From Lentzea sp. NBRC 105346 (GTDB taxonomy: Bacteria > Actinomycetota > Actinomycetes > Mycobacteriales > Pseudonocardiaceae), in assembly GCF_030269605.1 (NCBI RefSeq), contig NZ_BSTQ01000005.1:28192-92191 (forward strand): a stretch of 64,000 nucleotides of DNA, read 5' to 3'. A program made the translations under genes and the position numbers. Each line of letters starts with the position of its first letter. Position 1 is the first letter of the stretch. Under the pieces are notes generated by a model. The model was not told the DNA's origin. It ran no database searches and saw nothing but the letters and a program-made list of their open reading frames with translations. Shown here piece after piece: positions 33,363-40,813 of the stretch.

Positions 33363-33590
33363 TTACCTCCGCTTCAGGGCGAACAGGCCTCGGGTGCCCA
33401 GCACGCCGATGATCGTGCCGAAGACCAGTGAAACGATCACGAGCACCAGGTGCACGGTGAAGAACGCGGTCGGCCCATCCGCCCAGGAGCGCGGGTCTTT
33501 CCAGATGTTGCGAAGGAAAGTGGGCCAGATCACCCACGACCACACCCCGAAGGCCACGAGGAACATCGACATCCCACGGGAGAGCTTCAC
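33363..33590 (-). CDS. SCO4848-family-like small membrane protein
   Basis: 75 residues with two membrane segments (SMFLVAFGVWSWVIWPTFLR and FFTVHLVLVIVSLVFGTIIG) and a basic end. The pattern WPTFLRNIWKDPRSW with a Trp-rich first helix, and the position next to a D-Ala-D-Ala carboxypeptidase gene near sdh, match the SCO4848-type family of Streptomyces. Function unknown; possibly linked to envelope synthesis by conserved context. Confidence 0.75.
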   Translation of the reverse strand: MKLSRGMSMFLVAFGVWSWVIWPTFLRNIWKDPRSWADGPTAFFTVHLVLVIVSLVFGTIIGVLGTRGLFALKRR

Positions 33591-33638
33591 CGGAGCAGTA
33601 TCCGACGTGGCGGATGCAAGTCACTCAACCGGGGTGGA

Positions 33639-33651
33639 TAGCCTGACCCCC
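33639..33651 (+). promoter_or_regulatory. -10 box, leaderless start of the carboxypeptidase gene
   Basis: TAGCCT (33639-33644) is followed by 7 nt and GTG 33652. No Shine-Dalgarno is present. It decides between GTG 33652 and an upstream GTG at 33634. Confidence 0.45.
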
Positions 33652-34902
33652 GTGCCCTTCACCAAACGGCTCATCGTCGCCCTGGTCCTGATGACGGCCA
33701 CCGCTGCGTTCGCCGCGCCGACCGGCACCGCCCAGCCGACGTCCTCGAACGCGTCTGCCTGCGCGAACCGCGAGACTCCGCCGCCTCCGGTGGACACTTC
33801 CGAACAGCCGAAGCCCGGCACCAAGGCGCCCGGACCGCTCGAGGTCCCGGAATCACCCGTCGGTGGCGACCGGCTCGGCGAATGCGGGCTCATCCTGCCG
33901 CCGAACGCGCAGCCGTTGCCGAACATCACGGCCGCCTCGTGGCTGCTCGCGGACATCGACAGCGGCGCCGTGCTCGCCGCGTACGACCCGCACGGGCGGC
34001 AGCGGCCGGCGAGCGTCATCAAGGTGCTGCTCGCCATGGTCGTGGCGAAGGAGCTGCGCGGCGACATCGTCGCCACCGCCACCGCCGAGGACATCGAGCA
34101 GGAGTGCACCTGCGTCGGCCTGCGCGACGGCGGCCAGTACACGGTGCGGCAGCTGCTGCAGGCGCTGCTGCTGTCGTCCGGCAACGACGTGGCGCACACG
34201 CTGGCCCGCCAGCTCGGCGGCGTGCCGAACGCGCTGCGCAAGATGAACGCGCTCGCCAAGGAGCTCGGCGCGCTCGACACCCGCGCGGTCACGCCGTCCG
34301 GTCTGGACGGTCCGGGCACCAGCACGTCGGCCTACGACGTGGCGCTGATCTTCCGCGGCGCGATGAAGTACCCGGAGTTCGCCGACGCGATCAAGCTGCA
34401 GCAGACTGAGTTCCCCGGTCGCAACGGCGGCACCATCACGCTGAACAGCGACAACAAGCTGCTCACCAGCTACGAGGGCGCGCTGGGCGGCAAGACCGGC
34501 TTCACCGACGACGCGCAGCACACCTACGTCGGCGCCGCGGAACGCAACGGCCGCCGCCTCGTCGTCACCCTGCTGCGCGGCCAGCAGACGCCGACCAGGA
34601 TCGTCGACCAGGCCGCCAAGCTGCTCGACTACGGCTTCGCGATGGGCCCCGGCGGGGTCGGCCAGCTGGTCAACGGCGCGCCGCAGCCCAAGCAGAAGGT
34701 GACCACCACCCAGCCGCCCAACGTCGCGGACACCGCGGCGACCGGCGGCGACGGCAGGTCCGAGCGCTCCGCCCCGTCGGCTTTCGGCAACGTCGGCGGC
34801 CCCATCACCGCGGTCGCGGGCCTCGGCCTGCTGGCGGCGTTGTTCATGTACTTCCGCAAGAAGCGGGCCAGGGCCCGCAGGCAGGCCGCCCAGAGCGCCT
34901 GA
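33652..34902 (+). CDS. D-alanyl-D-alanine carboxypeptidase (S11, DacA-like)
   Basis: About 416 residues. The signal peptide (KRLIVALVLMTATAAFA) is followed by a Pro-rich linker. The penicillin-binding domain has SxxK (PASVIKVLLAMVV), SxN (LLSSGNDVAHTLA) and KTG (LGGKTGFTDDA) motifs. A C-terminal Pro/Gln linker ends in one membrane helix and a basic tail (LGLLAALFMYFRKKRARARR), so the enzyme is held outside the membrane. It trims pentapeptide stems. The start follows a TAGCCT box by 7 nt. Confidence 0.93.
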   Translation: MPFTKRLIVALVLMTATAAFAAPTGTAQPTSSNASACANRETPPPPVDTSEQPKPGTKAPGPLEVPESPVGGDRLGECGLILPPNAQPLPNITAASWLLADIDSGAVLAAYDPHGRQRPASVIKVLLAMVVAKELRGDIVATATAEDIEQECTCVGLRDGGQYTVRQLLQALLLSSGNDVAHTLARQLGGVPNALRKMNALAKELGALDTRAVTPSGLDGPGTSTSAYDVALIFRGAMKYPEFADAIKLQQTEFPGRNGGTITLNSDNKLLTSYEGALGGKTGFTDDAQHTYVGAAERNGRRLVVTLLRGQQTPTRIVDQAAKLLDYGFAMGPGGVGQLVNGAPQPKQKVTTTQPPNVADTAATGGDGRSERSAPSAFGNVGGPITAVAGLGLLAALFMYFRKKRARARRQAAQSA

Positions 34903-34917
34903 CCCACCGCACACCCG

Positions 34918-34947
34918 AACGCCGCCCGGCTCCTGCCGGGCGGCGTT
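34918..34947 (+). terminator. Terminator after the carboxypeptidase gene
   Basis: AACGCCGCCCGGC (34918-34930) pairs with GCCGGGCGGCGTT (34935-34947) around TCCT, followed by T and C. The spacer 34950-35137 is AT-richer than its surroundings and holds the NRPS leader. Confidence 0.88.
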
Positions 34948-35075: not shown

Positions 35076-35135
35076 GGGTTCTATTCACCCTGCCCGAATG
35101 GAACCCGTAAATTCCACCCTGACCTTTGGGGAATT
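35076..35135 (+). promoter_or_regulatory. Inverted repeats in the NRPS leader
   Basis: GGGTTCTATTC (35076-35086) pairs with GAATGGAACCC (35096-35106), with one G-T pair and a 9-nt loop. Further on, AATTCC (35110-35115) can pair with GGAATT (35130-35135), covering the GGGG Shine-Dalgarno (35128-35131) of the GTG at 35138. The first may be an operator, the second could limit ribosome access. Confidence 0.45.
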
Positions 35136-35137
35136 CC

Positions 35138-38100
35138 GTGTCGAACAATGCGGTTCTGCCAGCGTCCTCCCCCTGCCTGCCGGATTTGCTGGCACAACAG
35201 GTCGAGTTATACCGCCATAACACAGCGGTTATTTGTGGCAACGCAAATCTGAGCTTCGGCGAACTTCAGGAGAAAAGCCGGGCTCTGGCGGCCGAACTGC
35301 ACGCGCTGGGTGTGGAACAGGACCATCCGGTCGGCATGTTCGTCGAGCCGTCCCTCGACCTGGTGATCGGGGTGTGGGGCGTCCTGTTCGCCGGCGCCGC
35401 CTACCTGCCGCTCTCGCCGGAGTACCCGGAGGAGCGCCTGCGGTACATGATCTCCGACTCCGGCACGAAGATCGTGTTCACGCAGGCGTCGCTGCGCACG
35501 CGGCTCGCCGGGCTGGTTCCCGCCGGTACGCGGATCATCACGCTGGACGACGTGGACAGACCTGATGGCGAGCCGGTCGGCCCACGTCCCGATGGTCTGG
35601 CGTACGTCATCTACACCTCGGGCAGCAGCGGCAGACCCAAGGGCGTGCTGATCGAGCACCGAAGCATCGTCAACCAGATGCGCTGGCTCGCGTCCGCGCA
35701 CGGGCTGGACCGCACCAAGGTGGTCCTGCAGAAGACGCCGATGAGCTTCGACGCGGCGCAGTGGGAGATCCTGGCCTCGGCGGTCGGCAGCACGGTGGTA
35801 CTGGGCAGACCCGGCGTGTACCGCGATCCGGAAGGCATCATCGACGCGATCCGCGCGCACGAGATCACCACGCTGCAATGCGTGCCGACGTTGTTGCAGG
35901 CGCTGGTCGACACCGAAGAACTGCAGACCTGCCACACGCTGCGGCAGATCTTCAGCGGAGGCGAGGCGCTGTCACGGATTCTGGCGACGAGCTGTCTGGA
36001 GAGTATTCCCGACATTACCTTAATCAACCTGTACGGGCCGACCGAATGCACCATCAACTCGTCGTCCCACGTCGTGGATCGCGCAGATCTGACGGAGGGT
36101 TCTCATTCCGTTTCGATCGGAACACCCGTAGACAACACGATCTATCGAATTCTTGACGGGAACCGCGAACCCGTCGCGGTGGGCGAGGTGGGTGAGCTCT
36201 ACATCGGCGGAGTCCAGGTCGCGCGCGGCTATCTGAACCGGCCGGACCTGACCGCGGAACGCTTTGTCGGAAACCCTCCGCTGTTCCGGACCGGCGACCT
36301 CGCGTACTGGAACCCGGACGGCACCGCGCAGTTCGTCGGCCGGGCGGACAACCAGGTCAAGCTGCGCGGCTTCCGGGTCGAGCTGGACGAGATCAAGCTC
36401 GCCATCGAGACGCACGACTGGGTCCGCAACGCCGCGGTCATCGTCAAGGACGATCCCCGCACCGGCCATCAGAACCTGATCGCCTGCGTCGAGTTGAACT
36501 CGAAGGAAGCGGCCCTGATGGACCAGGGCAACGCCGGCGCGCACCACCAGTCGAAGTCGAGCCGGCTCCAGGTGCGGGCCCAGCTGTCCAACCCCGGTGT
36601 GCGCACCGACCTCGACGACCGCGAGACGATCGATCTGCCGGGCGCGGTCGCGACGCCCGCGCAGCGCAGGCAGGCGTTCGCGCGCAAGACCTACCGGTTC
36701 TACGAGGGTGGCCACGTCACGGCCGCGGACGTGCTGAAGCTGTTGGGCCACAGGGTCGAGGGCCGGGAACCGCGCGAGCCGGCGGCCCTGCCGTTCGCCG
36801 AGTTCGGGGAGATCCTCCGGTACTTCGGCCAGCACCTCAGCGACGAGCGGCTGCTGCCGAAGTACGGCTACGCCTCGCCCGGTTCGTTGTACGCGACGCA
36901 GTTGTACTTCGAGCTGCACCACATCGGCGACCTGCGGTCCGGGCTGTACTACTACCACCCGCAACGGCACCAGCTGGTGCTGATCACCGAGGTCCCCCGG
37001 GCAGAAGCGGCTCGGGTGCGGGTGCACTTCGTCGGCCACCGGCAGGCGATCGAGCCGGTCTACCAGAACAACATCCTCGAGGTGCTGGAGATCGAGACCG
37101 GGCACGCCGTCGGGCTGTTCGAGCAGGTGCTGCCCGCGTACGGCCTGGACATCCGCCCGGCCGGGTACACGCCCGAGGTGCGCGACCGGCTGGACTGCGC
37201 GGACGACGACCACTACCTGGGCTCGTTCGAGCTGGTCCCCTATGCCGGGCCCCGTGACGACGACGTCGACATCTACGTCCAGGCCCATCCCGGAAAGATC
37301 GCCGACCTGCCCGCCGGTCAGTACCGCTACGCGGGCGGCGAGCTGGCCCGTGTCTCGGACGAACTGGTGCTGCGCAAGCAGGTCATCGCCATCAACCAGG
37401 CGGTGTACGAGCGGGCGAGCCTCGGCATCAGCGTGATCAGCCGCAACGATGAGGACTGGCTGCGCTACATCGATCTGGGCCGCGTGCAGCAGCGGCTGTC
37501 GATGAACGACCTCGGCCTCGGCTTCATGTCGTCCGGATACAGCTCGAAGTCCGGCCACGACCTGCCGTCGGCGAAGCGGATCACCGCCGTGCTCGACGAG
37601 ATCGGTGCGAAGAGCGGCCCGTCTTACTTCTTCGTCGGCGGCCGCGTATCGGAGGAGCAGCTGCTGCACGAGGGCATGAAGGAAGACGTCGTCCACATGA
37701 AGGGACCGGCGGAGATGATCAAGGACGACCTGGTCGACTTCCTGCCGGACTACATGATCCCGAACAAGGTCGTGGTGCTCGACGCGTTGCCGACGACCGC
37801 CAACGGCAAGATCGACGTGCTCGCGCTGCGCGCGTCCAGCCAGACGGACGTGGACGTCACCGACCGGCCGTTCGTCGCGCCGCGCACCGCCACCGAGCGG
37901 ATCGTCAGCGGCTTCTGGAAGAAGCTGATGCGACGCGAGACGGTGTCCACACAGGACGATTTCTTCTCCACCGGCGGCAATTCGCTGATCGCGGTCGGCC
38001 TGGTCAACCGGATCAACCGCGAGTTCGGCAGCTCGCTGCCGTTGCAGGTGCTCTTCGAGGCGCCGACGATCGAACAGCTCGCGCGCCGCGTGGAGCGCGA

Positions 38101-38932
38101 CCAGGGCATCGCCACGTCGCGTCTGGTCCCGCTGGCGCCGAGCGGGACGGGCGCCCCGGTGTTCTGCTGGCCGGGTCTCGGCGGCTACCCGATGAACCTG
38201 CGGACGCTGGCGTCGTACGCGCAGCGGCCGTTCTTCGGTGTGCAGGCCTACGGGATCAACGAGGGCGAGACGCCGTACGACACGATCCGCGACATGGCGG
38301 CCGCGGACGTCGAGGCGATCAAGGAGGTGCAGCCGCAAGGGCCCTATCGGTTGTGGGGCTACTCCTTCGGCGCCCGTGTCGCGTTCGAGACCGCGTTCCA
38401 GCTGGAGAGCGCGGGCGACGAGGTCGAGCACGTGTTCCTGATCGCGCCGGGATCACCGAAGGTGCGCGCCGAAGGCGATCCGGCCGACGCCTCGTACGAC
38501 AACAAGGCGTTCGTGACGATCCTCTACTCCGTTTTCTCAGGCAGCATCAGCGATCCCGGTGTGCGTGCGTGCCTGGAGTCCACAAAGGACGCGGATACGT
38601 TCGCCGAGTTCATCGCCCAGCGGTTCCGCGACATCGATTCCGGTCTGGTGCGCCGGATCATGCGGATCGTCGACCAGACCTTCACGTTCGAGTACACGTT
38701 CAGCGAGCTCGCCGAACGCCGTGTCTCGGCGCCGATCACGATCTTCAAGGCGACCGGCGACGACTACTCGTTCATCGAGAACGCCGCCGGCTACTCGGCG
38801 CGGCCGCCCGCGGTCGTCGATCTCGCGGGCGACCACTACGGCCTGCTCAGGGAACCGGACATCGGCGAGCTGGTGCGGGCGATCCACCACCGCATCGAAC
38901 GCCAGGTCGCGCTCGAGTCCCACGCCTGCTGA
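35138..38932 (+). CDS. Indigoidine synthetase-like single-module NRPS (A-Ox-T-TE)
   Basis: About 1264 residues, near the roughly 1280 of BpsA/IndC/IdgS. The adenylation domain has AYVIYTSGSSGRPKG, NLYGPTECTI, RTGDLAYWNPDG and the Lys in NGKIDVLAL. Aligned with GrsA its pocket reads D, A, W, Q, F, G, L, I, N, the L-glutamine code. A flavin oxidase (nitroreductase/SagB-like) lies inside it at about 515-840 (SPGSLYATQLYFELHHIG). A carrier domain (FFSTGGNSLIAVGLVNRI) and a thioesterase (LWGYSFGARVAFE, late GDHYGLL) follow. It should oxidise and cyclise glutamine to the blue pigment indigoidine. GTG 35138 has GGGG 6 nt upstream. TTA codons lie at 35207 and 36020. A DMT transporter gene follows; no indA/indB genes or carrier-activating transferase are seen. 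Confidence 0.9.
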   Translation: MSNNAVLPASSPCLPDLLAQQVELYRHNTAVICGNANLSFGELQEKSRALAAELHALGVEQDHPVGMFVEPSLDLVIGVWGVLFAGAAYLPLSPEYPEERLRYMISDSGTKIVFTQASLRTRLAGLVPAGTRIITLDDVDRPDGEPVGPRPDGLAYVIYTSGSSGRPKGVLIEHRSIVNQMRWLASAHGLDRTKVVLQKTPMSFDAAQWEILASAVGSTVVLGRPGVYRDPEGIIDAIRAHEITTLQCVPTLLQALVDTEELQTCHTLRQIFSGGEALSRILATSCLESIPDITLINLYGPTECTINSSSHVVDRADLTEGSHSVSIGTPVDNTIYRILDGNREPVAVGEVGELYIGGVQVARGYLNRPDLTAERFVGNPPLFRTGDLAYWNPDGTAQFVGRADNQVKLRGFRVELDEIKLAIETHDWVRNAAVIVKDDPRTGHQNLIACVELNSKEAALMDQGNAGAHHQSKSSRLQVRAQLSNPGVRTDLDDRETIDLPGAVATPAQRRQAFARKTYRFYEGGHVTAADVLKLLGHRVEGREPREPAALPFAEFGEILRYFGQHLSDERLLPKYGYASPGSLYATQLYFELHHIGDLRSGLYYYHPQRHQLVLITEVPRAEAARVRVHFVGHRQAIEPVYQNNILEVLEIETGHAVGLFEQVLPAYGLDIRPAGYTPEVRDRLDCADDDHYLGSFELVPYAGPRDDDVDIYVQAHPGKIADLPAGQYRYAGGELARVSDELVLRKQVIAINQAVYERASLGISVISRNDEDWLRYIDLGRVQQRLSMNDLGLGFMSSGYSSKSGHDLPSAKRITAVLDEIGAKSGPSYFFVGGRVSEEQLLHEGMKEDVVHMKGPAEMIKDDLVDFLPDYMIPNKVVVLDALPTTANGKIDVLALRASSQTDVDVTDRPFVAPRTATERIVSGFWKKLMRRETVSTQDDFFSTGGNSLIAVGLVNRINREFGSSLPLQVLFEAPTIEQLARRVERDQGIATSRLVPLAPSGTGAPVFCWPGLGGYPMNLRTLASYAQRPFFGVQAYGINEGETPYDTIRDMAAADVEAIKEVQPQGPYRLWGYSFGARVAFETAFQLESAGDEVEHVFLIAPGSPKVRAEGDPADASYDNKAFVTILYSVFSGSISDPGVRACLESTKDADTFAEFIAQRFRDIDSGLVRRIMRIVDQTFTFEYTFSELAERRVSAPITIFKATGDDYSFIENAAGYSARPPAVVDLAGDHYGLLREPDIGELVRAIHHRIERQVALESHAC

Positions 38933-38942
38933 GGAGAATGCG

Positions 38943-39824
38943 GTGCAGAACAACAGACTGCTGCTCGACTCGGCCATCACCGCGCTGGCGCCGGCCATCT
39001 GGGGCAGCACCTACCTGGTGACGACCGAGCTGCTGCCGCCGGACCGGCCACTGCTCGCGGCGACGCTGCGTGCGCTGCCCTCGGGGCTGGTGCTGGTGCT
39101 GATGTTCGGCCGGGTCCTGCCGACCGGAATCTGGTGGTGGCGGGCGCTGGTGCTCGGCACGCTCAACATCGGCGCGTTCTTCTTCCTGCTCTTCTACGCG
39201 GCGTACCACCTGCCGGGCGGCGTGGCGGCGCTCGTCACCTCCGTCCAGCCGTTCCTGGTGCTGGTGCTGGCAGCGCTGCTGCTCGGCGACCGGATCCGGC
39301 CGCTGCACGTGATGGCCTGCGTGTGCGCGTCGGCCGGGGTCGCGCTGCTGGTGCTGAAGGCGACGGCACGGCTCGACTTCGTCGGTGTCGTGGCCGCGCT
39401 GGCCGGGGCGGCCTGTATGGCGTCGGGCATCGTGCTCACCAAGCGGTGGAAGCGGCCGGTCGGCCTGCTGCCGTTCACCGGCTGGCAGCTCACGGCCGGT
39501 GGTCTCGTGCTGCTGCCCGCGTTGCTGGTGTTCGAAGGACTGCCGAGCGAGATCACCACGACGAACGCCATCGGGTTCGGGTACCTGACGGTGCTCGGGG
39601 CGATCTTCAGCTACGCGGTCTGGTTCCGCGGCACCGATCGGCTGCCCGCGATCGGGATGTCGTTCCTCGGGTTCCTCAGCCCGCTCGTGGCGACGATCCT
39701 CGGCTACCTGTTCAAGGACCAGACGCTGACGATCCCGCAACTGGCCGGCGCCGTGATCCTGATCGGCTCGATCGTGCTGGTCCAGGTCACTCCGGCGCGC
39801 CGGCCGGAGCTGGTCCGTGCCTAG
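38943..39824 (+). CDS. EamA/DMT-family transporter, probable exporter
   Basis: 293 residues, ten membrane helices in two EamA repeats (about 10-135 and 150-285). The first repeat shows LAPAIWGSTYLVTTELLP and VTSVQPFLVLVLAALLLGDR, the second VLGAIFSYAVWFRGTDRL and LSPLVATILGYLF. GTG 38943 has GAGGAG 6 nt upstream and lies 10 nt after the NRPS stop, so both are probably one transcript. Export of the pigment or a related product is inferred from this position. The stop shares CTAG with the convergent yihY-like gene. Confidence 0.9.
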   Translation: MQNNRLLLDSAITALAPAIWGSTYLVTTELLPPDRPLLAATLRALPSGLVLVLMFGRVLPTGIWWWRALVLGTLNIGAFFFLLFYAAYHLPGGVAALVTSVQPFLVLVLAALLLGDRIRPLHVMACVCASAGVALLVLKATARLDFVGVVAALAGAACMASGIVLTKRWKRPVGLLPFTGWQLTAGGLVLLPALLVFEGLPSEITTTNAIGFGYLTVLGAIFSYAVWFRGTDRLPAIGMSFLGFLSPLVATILGYLFKDQTLTIPQLAGAVILIGSIVLVQVTPARRPELVRA

Positions 39825-40813
39825 CGGCGTCTCCGGACGAGCAACGCCCCCGCCAGCGCGCCGACGCCGAGCAGACCGGCGGCGGTGCGCGGCGACGGGC
39901 CGGACCGCACTTCGACGATCGGCTGGATCACCGCGGGCGGCGGGGCCTGCACGGGTTCCGGCCGCAGGTTCTCGCGCGCGGTCGCCGTCCAGGCCGTCAT
40001 GTACAGCAGGAACTGCGCGACCAGGTTGGCGAAGACCAGCACACCGATCACGGAACCGAACGCCGCGGCCGTAGGCGAGGAGGTCACCGTGGACAGGAAG
40101 AGGCTCGCGGCCTGCTTCAGCACCTCGAAGCCGATCGCGGCGGCGAGCGCGCCCCGCAGACCGGAAGTCCATCCGACGGGCTCGCGCGGCAACCGGGTCA
40201 GCACCCACAGGAACACGATCCAGTTGGCCAGCAAGGACAACACGACCGCGGCGAGCTGCACGAGGAACCGCGCCCAGCCGGCGTCCTCCAGTCCGAGCCA
40301 GCGCAGCACCAGGTCCGCGAAGCCGGTGCCCAGCACGGTGATGCCGAACGACACCAAGATCGCGAGTCCGAGGCCGATCAGCGCGGCGAAGTCCTTGACC
40401 ATGGTCGACAGGAACGGCCGGTCCGCCTTCGGGTGCCCCCATTGCGCGGTCAGCGCGTCGCGCAGGTTGCTCATCCACCCGAGCCCCGAGAAGAGCGCAC
40501 CGCCGAGACCGATGAGCCCGACCGTGCCCTTCGACTTCAGCGCCGTGGTCACCGCGGTGTTGAGCTCCTCGCCGAGATCACCGGGCACCGCCTTGGTGAT
40601 GCTGTGCTGAAGGTCCGCCAGCAACTCGGGTTGCGCCTGCAGCACGAACCCCGCGATCGAGAAGCCGATCATCAGGATCGGCACCAGCGAGAGCACGCTG
40701 AAGTACGTGACCGCTGCGGCGTAATGGGTTCCGTAGCTCTCGGTGTAGCGCTCGTAGGCGCGCATGATGTGATCGAGCCAGGCGTACTTGCGCCGCAACT
40801 TGTCCACGATCAA
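39821..40813 (-). CDS. YihY/BrkB-family membrane protein
   Basis: 330 residues with about six membrane helices. The family opening ERYTESYGTHYAAAVTYFSV with a following LSLVPILMIGFSIAGFVL, and VIGVLVFANLVAQFLLYMTA near the end, are typical of YihY/virulence factor BrkB proteins. The C-terminus has a Pro-rich linker and a last membrane helix with an RRRR tail. It lies 18 nt downstream of trpS on the same strand, an order also seen in mycobacteria. Function unresolved in the family. Confidence 0.9.
   Translation of the reverse strand: MIVDKLRRKYAWLDHIMRAYERYTESYGTHYAAAVTYFSVLSLVPILMIGFSIAGFVLQAQPELLADLQHSITKAVPGDLGEELNTAVTTALKSKGTVGLIGLGGALFSGLGWMSNLRDALTAQWGHPKADRPFLSTMVKDFAALIGLGLAILVSFGITVLGTGFADLVLRWLGLEDAGWARFLVQLAAVVLSLLANWIVFLWVLTRLPREPVGWTSGLRGALAAAIGFEVLKQAASLFLSTVTSSPTAAAFGSVIGVLVFANLVAQFLLYMTAWTATARENLRPEPVQAPPPAVIQPIVEVRSGPSPRTAAGLLGVGALAGALLVRRRR

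Follow-up and report, generated by a model that had tools for sequence, protein, structure and literature searches.

In the 64,000-nucleotide stretch of Lentzea sp. NBRC 105346 analysed here (contig NZ_BSTQ01000005.1, positions 28,192 to 92,191; hereafter the window), a gene for an indigoidine synthetase of the IndC/BpsA/MinA type, a nonribosomal peptide synthetase (NRPS), is followed directly on the plus strand by a gene for a drug/metabolite transporter (DMT) of the EamA family. This locus is probably a reduced minimycin/indigoidine operon, which lost its C-nucleoside genes and was moved to, or acquired at, a new site. An NRPS with a MinT-type exporter and without C-nucleoside genes is a variant arrangement, seen once in 54 loci. 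In the openly licensed literature, as far as its accessible passages extend, no description of a pair reduced in this way was recognised. The locus offers a clean case, in which the cargo of the exporter can be asked about directly.

According to the available excerpts of PMC8724604, minimycin depends on five essential genes: minA (NRPS), minB (C-glycosynthase), minC (HAD phosphatase with DUF4243), minD (uracil phosphoribosyltransferase) and minT (transporter). MinT is described there as the minimycin exporter; MinT, MinD and part of MinC confer self-resistance, and an intermediate common to both branches couples spontaneously to indigoidine. The window shares with this minimycin (oxazinomycin) cluster the MinA kind of NRPS, and its transporter stands where MinT would be expected, but the locus has neither minB, minC and minD nor the tautomerase gene.

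The indigoidine synthetase

The NRPS gene (35138..38932, 1264 aa) begins with GTG at 35138 and ends with TGA at 38932. An alternative start, TTG at 35126, would lengthen the protein by 4 residues but falls within the probable ribosome site of the GTG. Pfam placed AMP-binding at residues 19-366, the AMP-binding_C tail at 856-891, PP-binding at 927-985 and a thioesterase at 1007-1120. The adenylation core extends to motif A8 (35192..36457, aa 19-440), and about 400 residues separate this motif from the AMP-binding_C tail. Here lies the inserted oxidase region (36500..37741, aa 455-868), which is followed by the carrier domain (37916..38092), with the phosphopantetheine-arm Ser949, and by the thioesterase domain (38156..38887, its end estimated), with Ser1076 and His1233; all three residues were found in 38/38 sequences. 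The order of adenylation, oxidase, carrier and thioesterase domains and the length agree with an earlier note on this DNA, made from the sequence alone. That note had also read nine pocket residues (D, A, W, Q, F, G, L, I, N). When ten residues were placed independently by alignment, in GrsA pocket numbering, the code DAWQFGLINK was obtained, including K891, and a misplacement of the pocket residues was rejected. The exact code occurs in 30 of the 38 sequences, that of the window included, and the remaining 8 differ at one position. In the accessible part of PMC3992020, DAWQFGLINK is given as the L-glutamine signature of SSHG_00313, an indigoidine NRPS of S. albus; IndA-like and IndB-like proteins, a transmembrane transporter and a phosphoribosyl transferase are encoded around it.

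The Pfam scan of the isolated oxidase region matched no family, and a PF00881 search of the own genome did not pick the region up. With phmmer only weak matches were obtained, to BmdC and CyaGox (best E 5e-5). Therefore, a structure model of residues 455-868 was built with AlphaFold2 from a 13-row alignment, and its mean pLDDT was 84.3. Foldseek matched this model to the nitroreductase 3eo7 (487 residues, E 6.5e-11) and to BmdC (7ly7, E 4.6e-10); ThcOx was also among the best matches, and McbC stood lower in the list. An oxidase without a flavin-type fold was rejected by the nitroreductase matches. The predicted fold is that of a flavin mononucleotide (FMN) nitroreductase pseudodimer, and the model suggests that the region binds FMN. 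Tyr642, the presumed base, is conserved in 38/38 sequences and aligns to residue 665 of the S. lavendulae pSA3239 protein; we take Tyr665 to be the base of BpsA, for which no supporting paper was found. Both the placement between A8 and A9 and the modelled fold agree with the IndC oxidase as portrayed in the accessible text of PMC8795117, namely a pseudodimer inserted between these two motifs.

The window NRPS is 45-70% identical to 37 other aligned IndC-type sequences (63% to the pSA3239 copy of S. lavendulae). Of 18 motif positions compared across the 38 sequences, 13 are invariant, K517, Y519, Y642, N645, S949, S1076, H1233, D387 and K891 among them, and 5 are kept in 35-37 sequences; the window carries the majority residue at all 18. 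Because the domain order, the pocket code, the oxidase fold and the conserved residues are those of an indigoidine-type NRPS, the earlier assignment holds, and within the BpsA/IndC/MinA family the protein is unremarkable; it is predicted to form the pigment from L-glutamine. With BpsA, IndC and LbpA it shares the order of domains, the glutamine code, the oxidase inserted in the adenylation domain and the catalytic positions. It differs from them in its surroundings, since indA and indB are not adjacent and nothing within 8 kb matches the SARP regulator found at the pSA3239 locus.

As regards codon usage, the first 400 codons of the gene (35138-36337) have a GC content at third positions (GC3) of 0.77-0.89 per 100 codons, below most of the remaining gene and below four neighbouring genes (0.93-0.97). 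TTA codons are present at codons 24 and 295. Among seven relatives checked, G044 (L166) likewise has low GC3 in the first 400 codons and two TTA codons; no TTA codon occurs in five group I copies or in one group II copy of Lentzea. The own genome is rich in NRPS genes, with 117 matches to the NRPS query at E <= 1e-20, of which one alone is full length.

The transporter and its usual setting

The DMT gene (38943..39824, plus strand, 293 aa) contains two EamA stretches according to Pfam. Its GTG start at 38943 stands 10 nt past the NRPS stop, and its ribosome site, GAGGAG at 38931..38936 of the plus strand, overlaps that stop and lies 6 nt upstream of the GTG, much as the earlier note had described. 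At the other end, the DMT stop overlaps the stop of a convergent gene by 4 nt.

In all, 120 family and 246 class genomes (own included) were searched for indC, and 53 distinct neighbourhoods besides the window were scored (47, minus the duplicate L084/L049, plus 7), mostly with 8 kb on each side. From the scan of genome contigs, the best 15 loci (L082-L096) of at least 80 were used, and 65 weaker ones (35-44% best-segment identity) were left out. Some neighbourhoods are truncated where the contig stops, as happens shortly past indC in L049 and L096, and a gene missing from such a locus is weak evidence. The counts of loci represent related genomes, not independent events, and the transporter profile, built from the first clade and one member of a second clade, could miss more distant transporters.

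IndA was found in 27 of the 53 other loci. Fourteen of the 53 hold a DMT of the window clade at most 8 kb from indC, and each of these encodes IndA as well as the uracil phosphoribosyltransferase Upp; in the tree the window DMT groups with these 14 transporters. The most distant clade members are those of L092 (48%) and L223 (42%), and in L082 the DMT lies 6 kb off. IndA is lacking in 26 of the other loci and in the window, and of these 27 the window alone has such a DMT. A chance neighbour was rejected, because transporters of the same clade recur near indC. The reading of the earlier note is thus supported in part. The transporter is conserved beside such NRPSs, but its clade goes with the minimycin branch. 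A compact pigment-and-export pair is therefore not the usual setting of the DMT, and in the window the two genes look like what is left of a longer operon. The gene sets of Lentzea and S. lavendulae fit the minimycin set, and the DMT is therefore called MinT-type, by position.

Relative to L198, the nonsynonymous rate (dN) of the window DMT is 0.154, and the six transporters of complete Lentzea loci range from 0.148 to 0.201. Between the window DMT and these six, the ratio of nonsynonymous to synonymous rates is about 0.3-0.4 by a simple count. The DMT is thus kept, with no sign of relaxed constraint.

Possible erosion of the minimycin branch in Lentzea

According to the accessible part of PMC9120177, antiSMASH has pointed to indigoidine clusters in Lentzea. 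A full-length NRPS match was found in 16 of 24 Lentzea genomes, own included. A group I copy, 68-70% identical to the window NRPS, is present in 14 further Lentzea genomes, and five more copies of 58-61% identity are spread over four genomes. Only 6 of the 14 group I loci are complete, with the order indC, indA, indB, upp, DMT, and a tautomerase gene follows indC in four of these six. In another six (L035, L038, L041, L043, L044, L046), IndA is without the Glu of ALES(N/T), changed to Pro, Ala or Thr, and without the Lys of CAGAK, changed to Arg or Glu; these loci are also without Upp and DMT. The two lost residues presumably correspond to the catalytic Glu31 and Lys166 of PsuG. In the last two loci (L039, L045), IndA, Upp and DMT are all missing. 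The window locus differs from all of these, in that the DMT is present while the tautomerase, IndA, IndB and Upp are missing. The survey suggests that the minimycin branch erodes in Lentzea while the indigoidine synthetase stays, which bears on the purpose of the pigment.

The partner genes were also sought in the rest of the own genome. Neither indA nor indB adjoins the window NRPS, as the earlier note had said. PF04227 identified one gene in the genome (C17:43639), on a different contig from the NRPS, and a high-scoring PF04227 gene is present in each of the 24 genus genomes, with or without indC; there is no second indA copy. No indB orthologue was found in the genome (best match to IndB of L034, 28% identity) and none within 8 kb; by comparison, IndB matches in 12 other group I loci are 77-92% identical to IndB of L037. 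A sequence query for the tautomerase had no match in the own genome; among five other Lentzea genomes, the same query was found in G010, G016 and G023, as a fragment in G011, and not at all in G020. For upp of the minD type, no match was present within 8 kb of the NRPS, and a housekeeping upp elsewhere was not searched for. With an assembly of 67 contigs that is 98.3% complete, it is improbable, though conceivable, that a gene was overlooked.

The insertion site

The pair lies between dac, a D-Ala-D-Ala carboxypeptidase gene (S11, Pfam; 33439..34902, plus strand), and a gene for a YhjD-like membrane protein (39821..40813, minus strand). The latter, the convergent gene mentioned above, has a match in 23 of the 24 genus genomes, own included; its name, yhjD, is presumptive, with no family call behind it. 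In relatives dac adjoins yhjD. Sixteen of the 22 other Lentzea genomes with yhjD have the dac end 57-476 nt from the yhjD end (57-67 nt in 12 of them), with no NRPS. Of 12 other genomes of the family, 11 have dac within 1.5 kb of the yhjD homologue, with no room for an NRPS, three of them in opposite orientation, and in G044 indC is 3 Mb from the dac-yhjD site. Conservation of the pair at this site in Lentzea was rejected, as the site is empty in relatives. The pair therefore most likely arrived between dac and yhjD in the lineage of the window, by relocation or transfer.

The IndC tree was made from 45 rows by a quick method, without L026, L084 and L170; the last, from the family genome G126, has an indC gene broken by two in-frame stops, one TGA and one TAG. 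Topology tests used a 22-row subset for IndC and left out L092 and L223 for the DMT. In the IndC tree the window stands beside the 14 group I Lentzea copies, with an approximate likelihood-ratio support (SH-aLRT) of 96 (90.9 in the 22-row set). In the DMT tree it stands just outside G044 and Lentzea, within the same Pseudonocardiaceae group, with support of 96/92 in 14 rows. The two placements are in no significant conflict in approximately unbiased tests (p-AU 0.139 and 0.059). In the YhjD tree the window genome lies on a long branch within the genus.

Apart from the two border genes, a perfect inverted repeat of 13 bp follows dac at 34918..34947, and a hairpin is also present in each of 13 empty dac-yhjD gaps inspected in other Lentzea genomes. 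A consensus scan for promoters and terminators called nothing, and this repeat was not scored as a terminator.

Interpretation and alternatives

The chemistry known from the literature implies the following sequence for the window locus. The NRPS would activate L-glutamine and load it onto the carrier domain, the FMN oxidase domain would oxidise the loaded glutamine at C2-C3, and the thioesterase would release the cyclised monomer, which would couple spontaneously to blue indigoidine. In related clusters the tautomerase, the C-glycosynthase IndA/MinB, the HAD phosphatase IndB/MinC and Upp/MinD belong to the minimycin branch, whose product is exported by MinT. The four genes between the NRPS and the transporter of complete Lentzea operons are absent from the window, and the two ends abut. 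The DMT would then be a MinT-type exporter that was kept and has taken on another cargo, for which the product of the NRPS, or the monomer of that product, is the simplest candidate. The strain should accordingly make indigoidine and no minimycin. The anatomy, the conserved residues, the pattern of co-occurrence, the empty site and the lack of indA, indB and tautomerase partners in the assembly are observed, and the order of events, the product and the cargo are all inferred. A bolder reading, judged rather unlikely, is that a C-nucleoside antibiotic operon shed its toxic branch while its self-resistance pump stayed and was reassigned from antibiotic to pigment, so that this MinT-type exporter now carries indigoidine or the reactive monomer out of the cell.

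Several points weigh against a reduced minimycin operon. The tautomerase is missing or fragmentary in two otherwise complete Lentzea loci (L034 and L040), so its loss in the window says little. With 20 rows the place of the window in the DMT tree is less well supported, at 84/88, and G044 joins differently in the IndC and DMT trees, although this difference is not significant. Six of the 22 Lentzea genomes were unscored for the empty site, five without dac within 1.5 kb and one at a contig end. Thirteen loci encode IndA but have no DMT of this clade. Six of them are those with the degenerate IndA, and the seven without residue loss (L051, L091, L093, L199, L200, L217, L218) show that the DMT is not required with IndA. 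The MinT-type label was given by gene position alone. Constraint on the DMT would also appear if the gene loss were recent, and a recent loss and a new function are not separable. Finally, the same pattern would result if the two genes had already been a pair in an unsampled donor and were transferred together.

Such a transfer, in which the pair was reduced before it arrived from an unsampled actinomycete, agrees with the empty site in relatives and outgroups, with the low GC3 at the start of the NRPS gene compared with its four neighbours, and with the two TTA codons absent from the five group I copies tested. The window IndC is, however, sister to the Lentzea group I copies, and no such pair stands near the indC genes of the family and class genomes searched; this origin is considered somewhat improbable. 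A dedicated pigment-and-export pair, whose DMT exports indigoidine as PecM does and whose genes are selected as a unit, is possible, with the balance leaning modestly against it. It is favoured by the 10-nt gap with the overlapping ribosome site, by the constraint on the DMT, by the description of the EamA transporter PecM as an indigoidine exporter and by the five loci without indA in which an EamA gene comes directly after indC. However, the transporters of those five loci belong to another clade, the clade of the window DMT is accompanied by both indA and upp in each of the 14 other loci that have it, and indigoidine is poorly soluble. In addition, the NRPS alone suffices for the pigment, according to the accessible part of PMC3992020. 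A bystander, left over from the deletion, with no present role and not yet decayed, is in line with this being the sole DMT of its clade without C-nucleoside genes and with the loss of the DMT in the 8 Lentzea group I loci with IndA missing or without both presumed catalytic residues; against it, the reading frame is intact, has a ribosome site and shows no rate increase, and a bystander is judged distinctly unlikely. A split cluster still making minimycin, for which other parts of the genome would provide indA, indB and upp, could draw on the gene at C17:43639 and on a housekeeping upp, which was not searched for. Since PF04227 genes occur throughout the genus irrespective of indC, and neither an indB orthologue nor a tautomerase was found in the genome, this is very improbable. 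A reduced minimycin operon is thus retained as the preferred explanation.

Comparison with other EamA-linked clusters

The window DMT resembles PecM of Dickeya dadantii in its two EamA domains and in its linkage to an indigoidine synthetase. The window differs in having no divergent pecS (MarR), and the neighbours of the DMT are indC and the convergent yhjD. The title of the original 2001 paper on PecM, as cited in PMC8707732, speaks of a "possible involvement". PecM is described as an indigoidine exporter in the accessible parts of PMC6391409, PMC9048822 and PMC12288460, so a link between EamA transporters and indigoidine is not new.

A second cluster type, which crosses phyla, has IndC with homologues of CysE (serine acetyltransferase) and CysK (cysteine synthase) within 8 kb and is without indA and upp. 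Among the matches listed in the literature on CysE/CysK, none names indigoidine. No CysE/CysK match was found beside the window NRPS. In five clusters of this type an EamA gene lies about 0.3 kb after the indC match: L163 (S. clavuligerus pCLA1), L219, L221, L094 and L165, which together represent S. clavuligerus, the Streptomyces-like G177 and G372, Rhizobium sp. ICMP 5592 and K84. Like the window, they have EamA after indC and no indA or upp within 8 kb. They differ from it in the tautomerase between indC and EamA, and in that their transporters form the second EamA clade, whose identity to members of the first is 22-32% in the pairs compared. The CysE/CysK type also includes L047-L050, L201, L205, L222 and L087. 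The product of these clusters might be formed from O-acetylserine and the IndC monomer.

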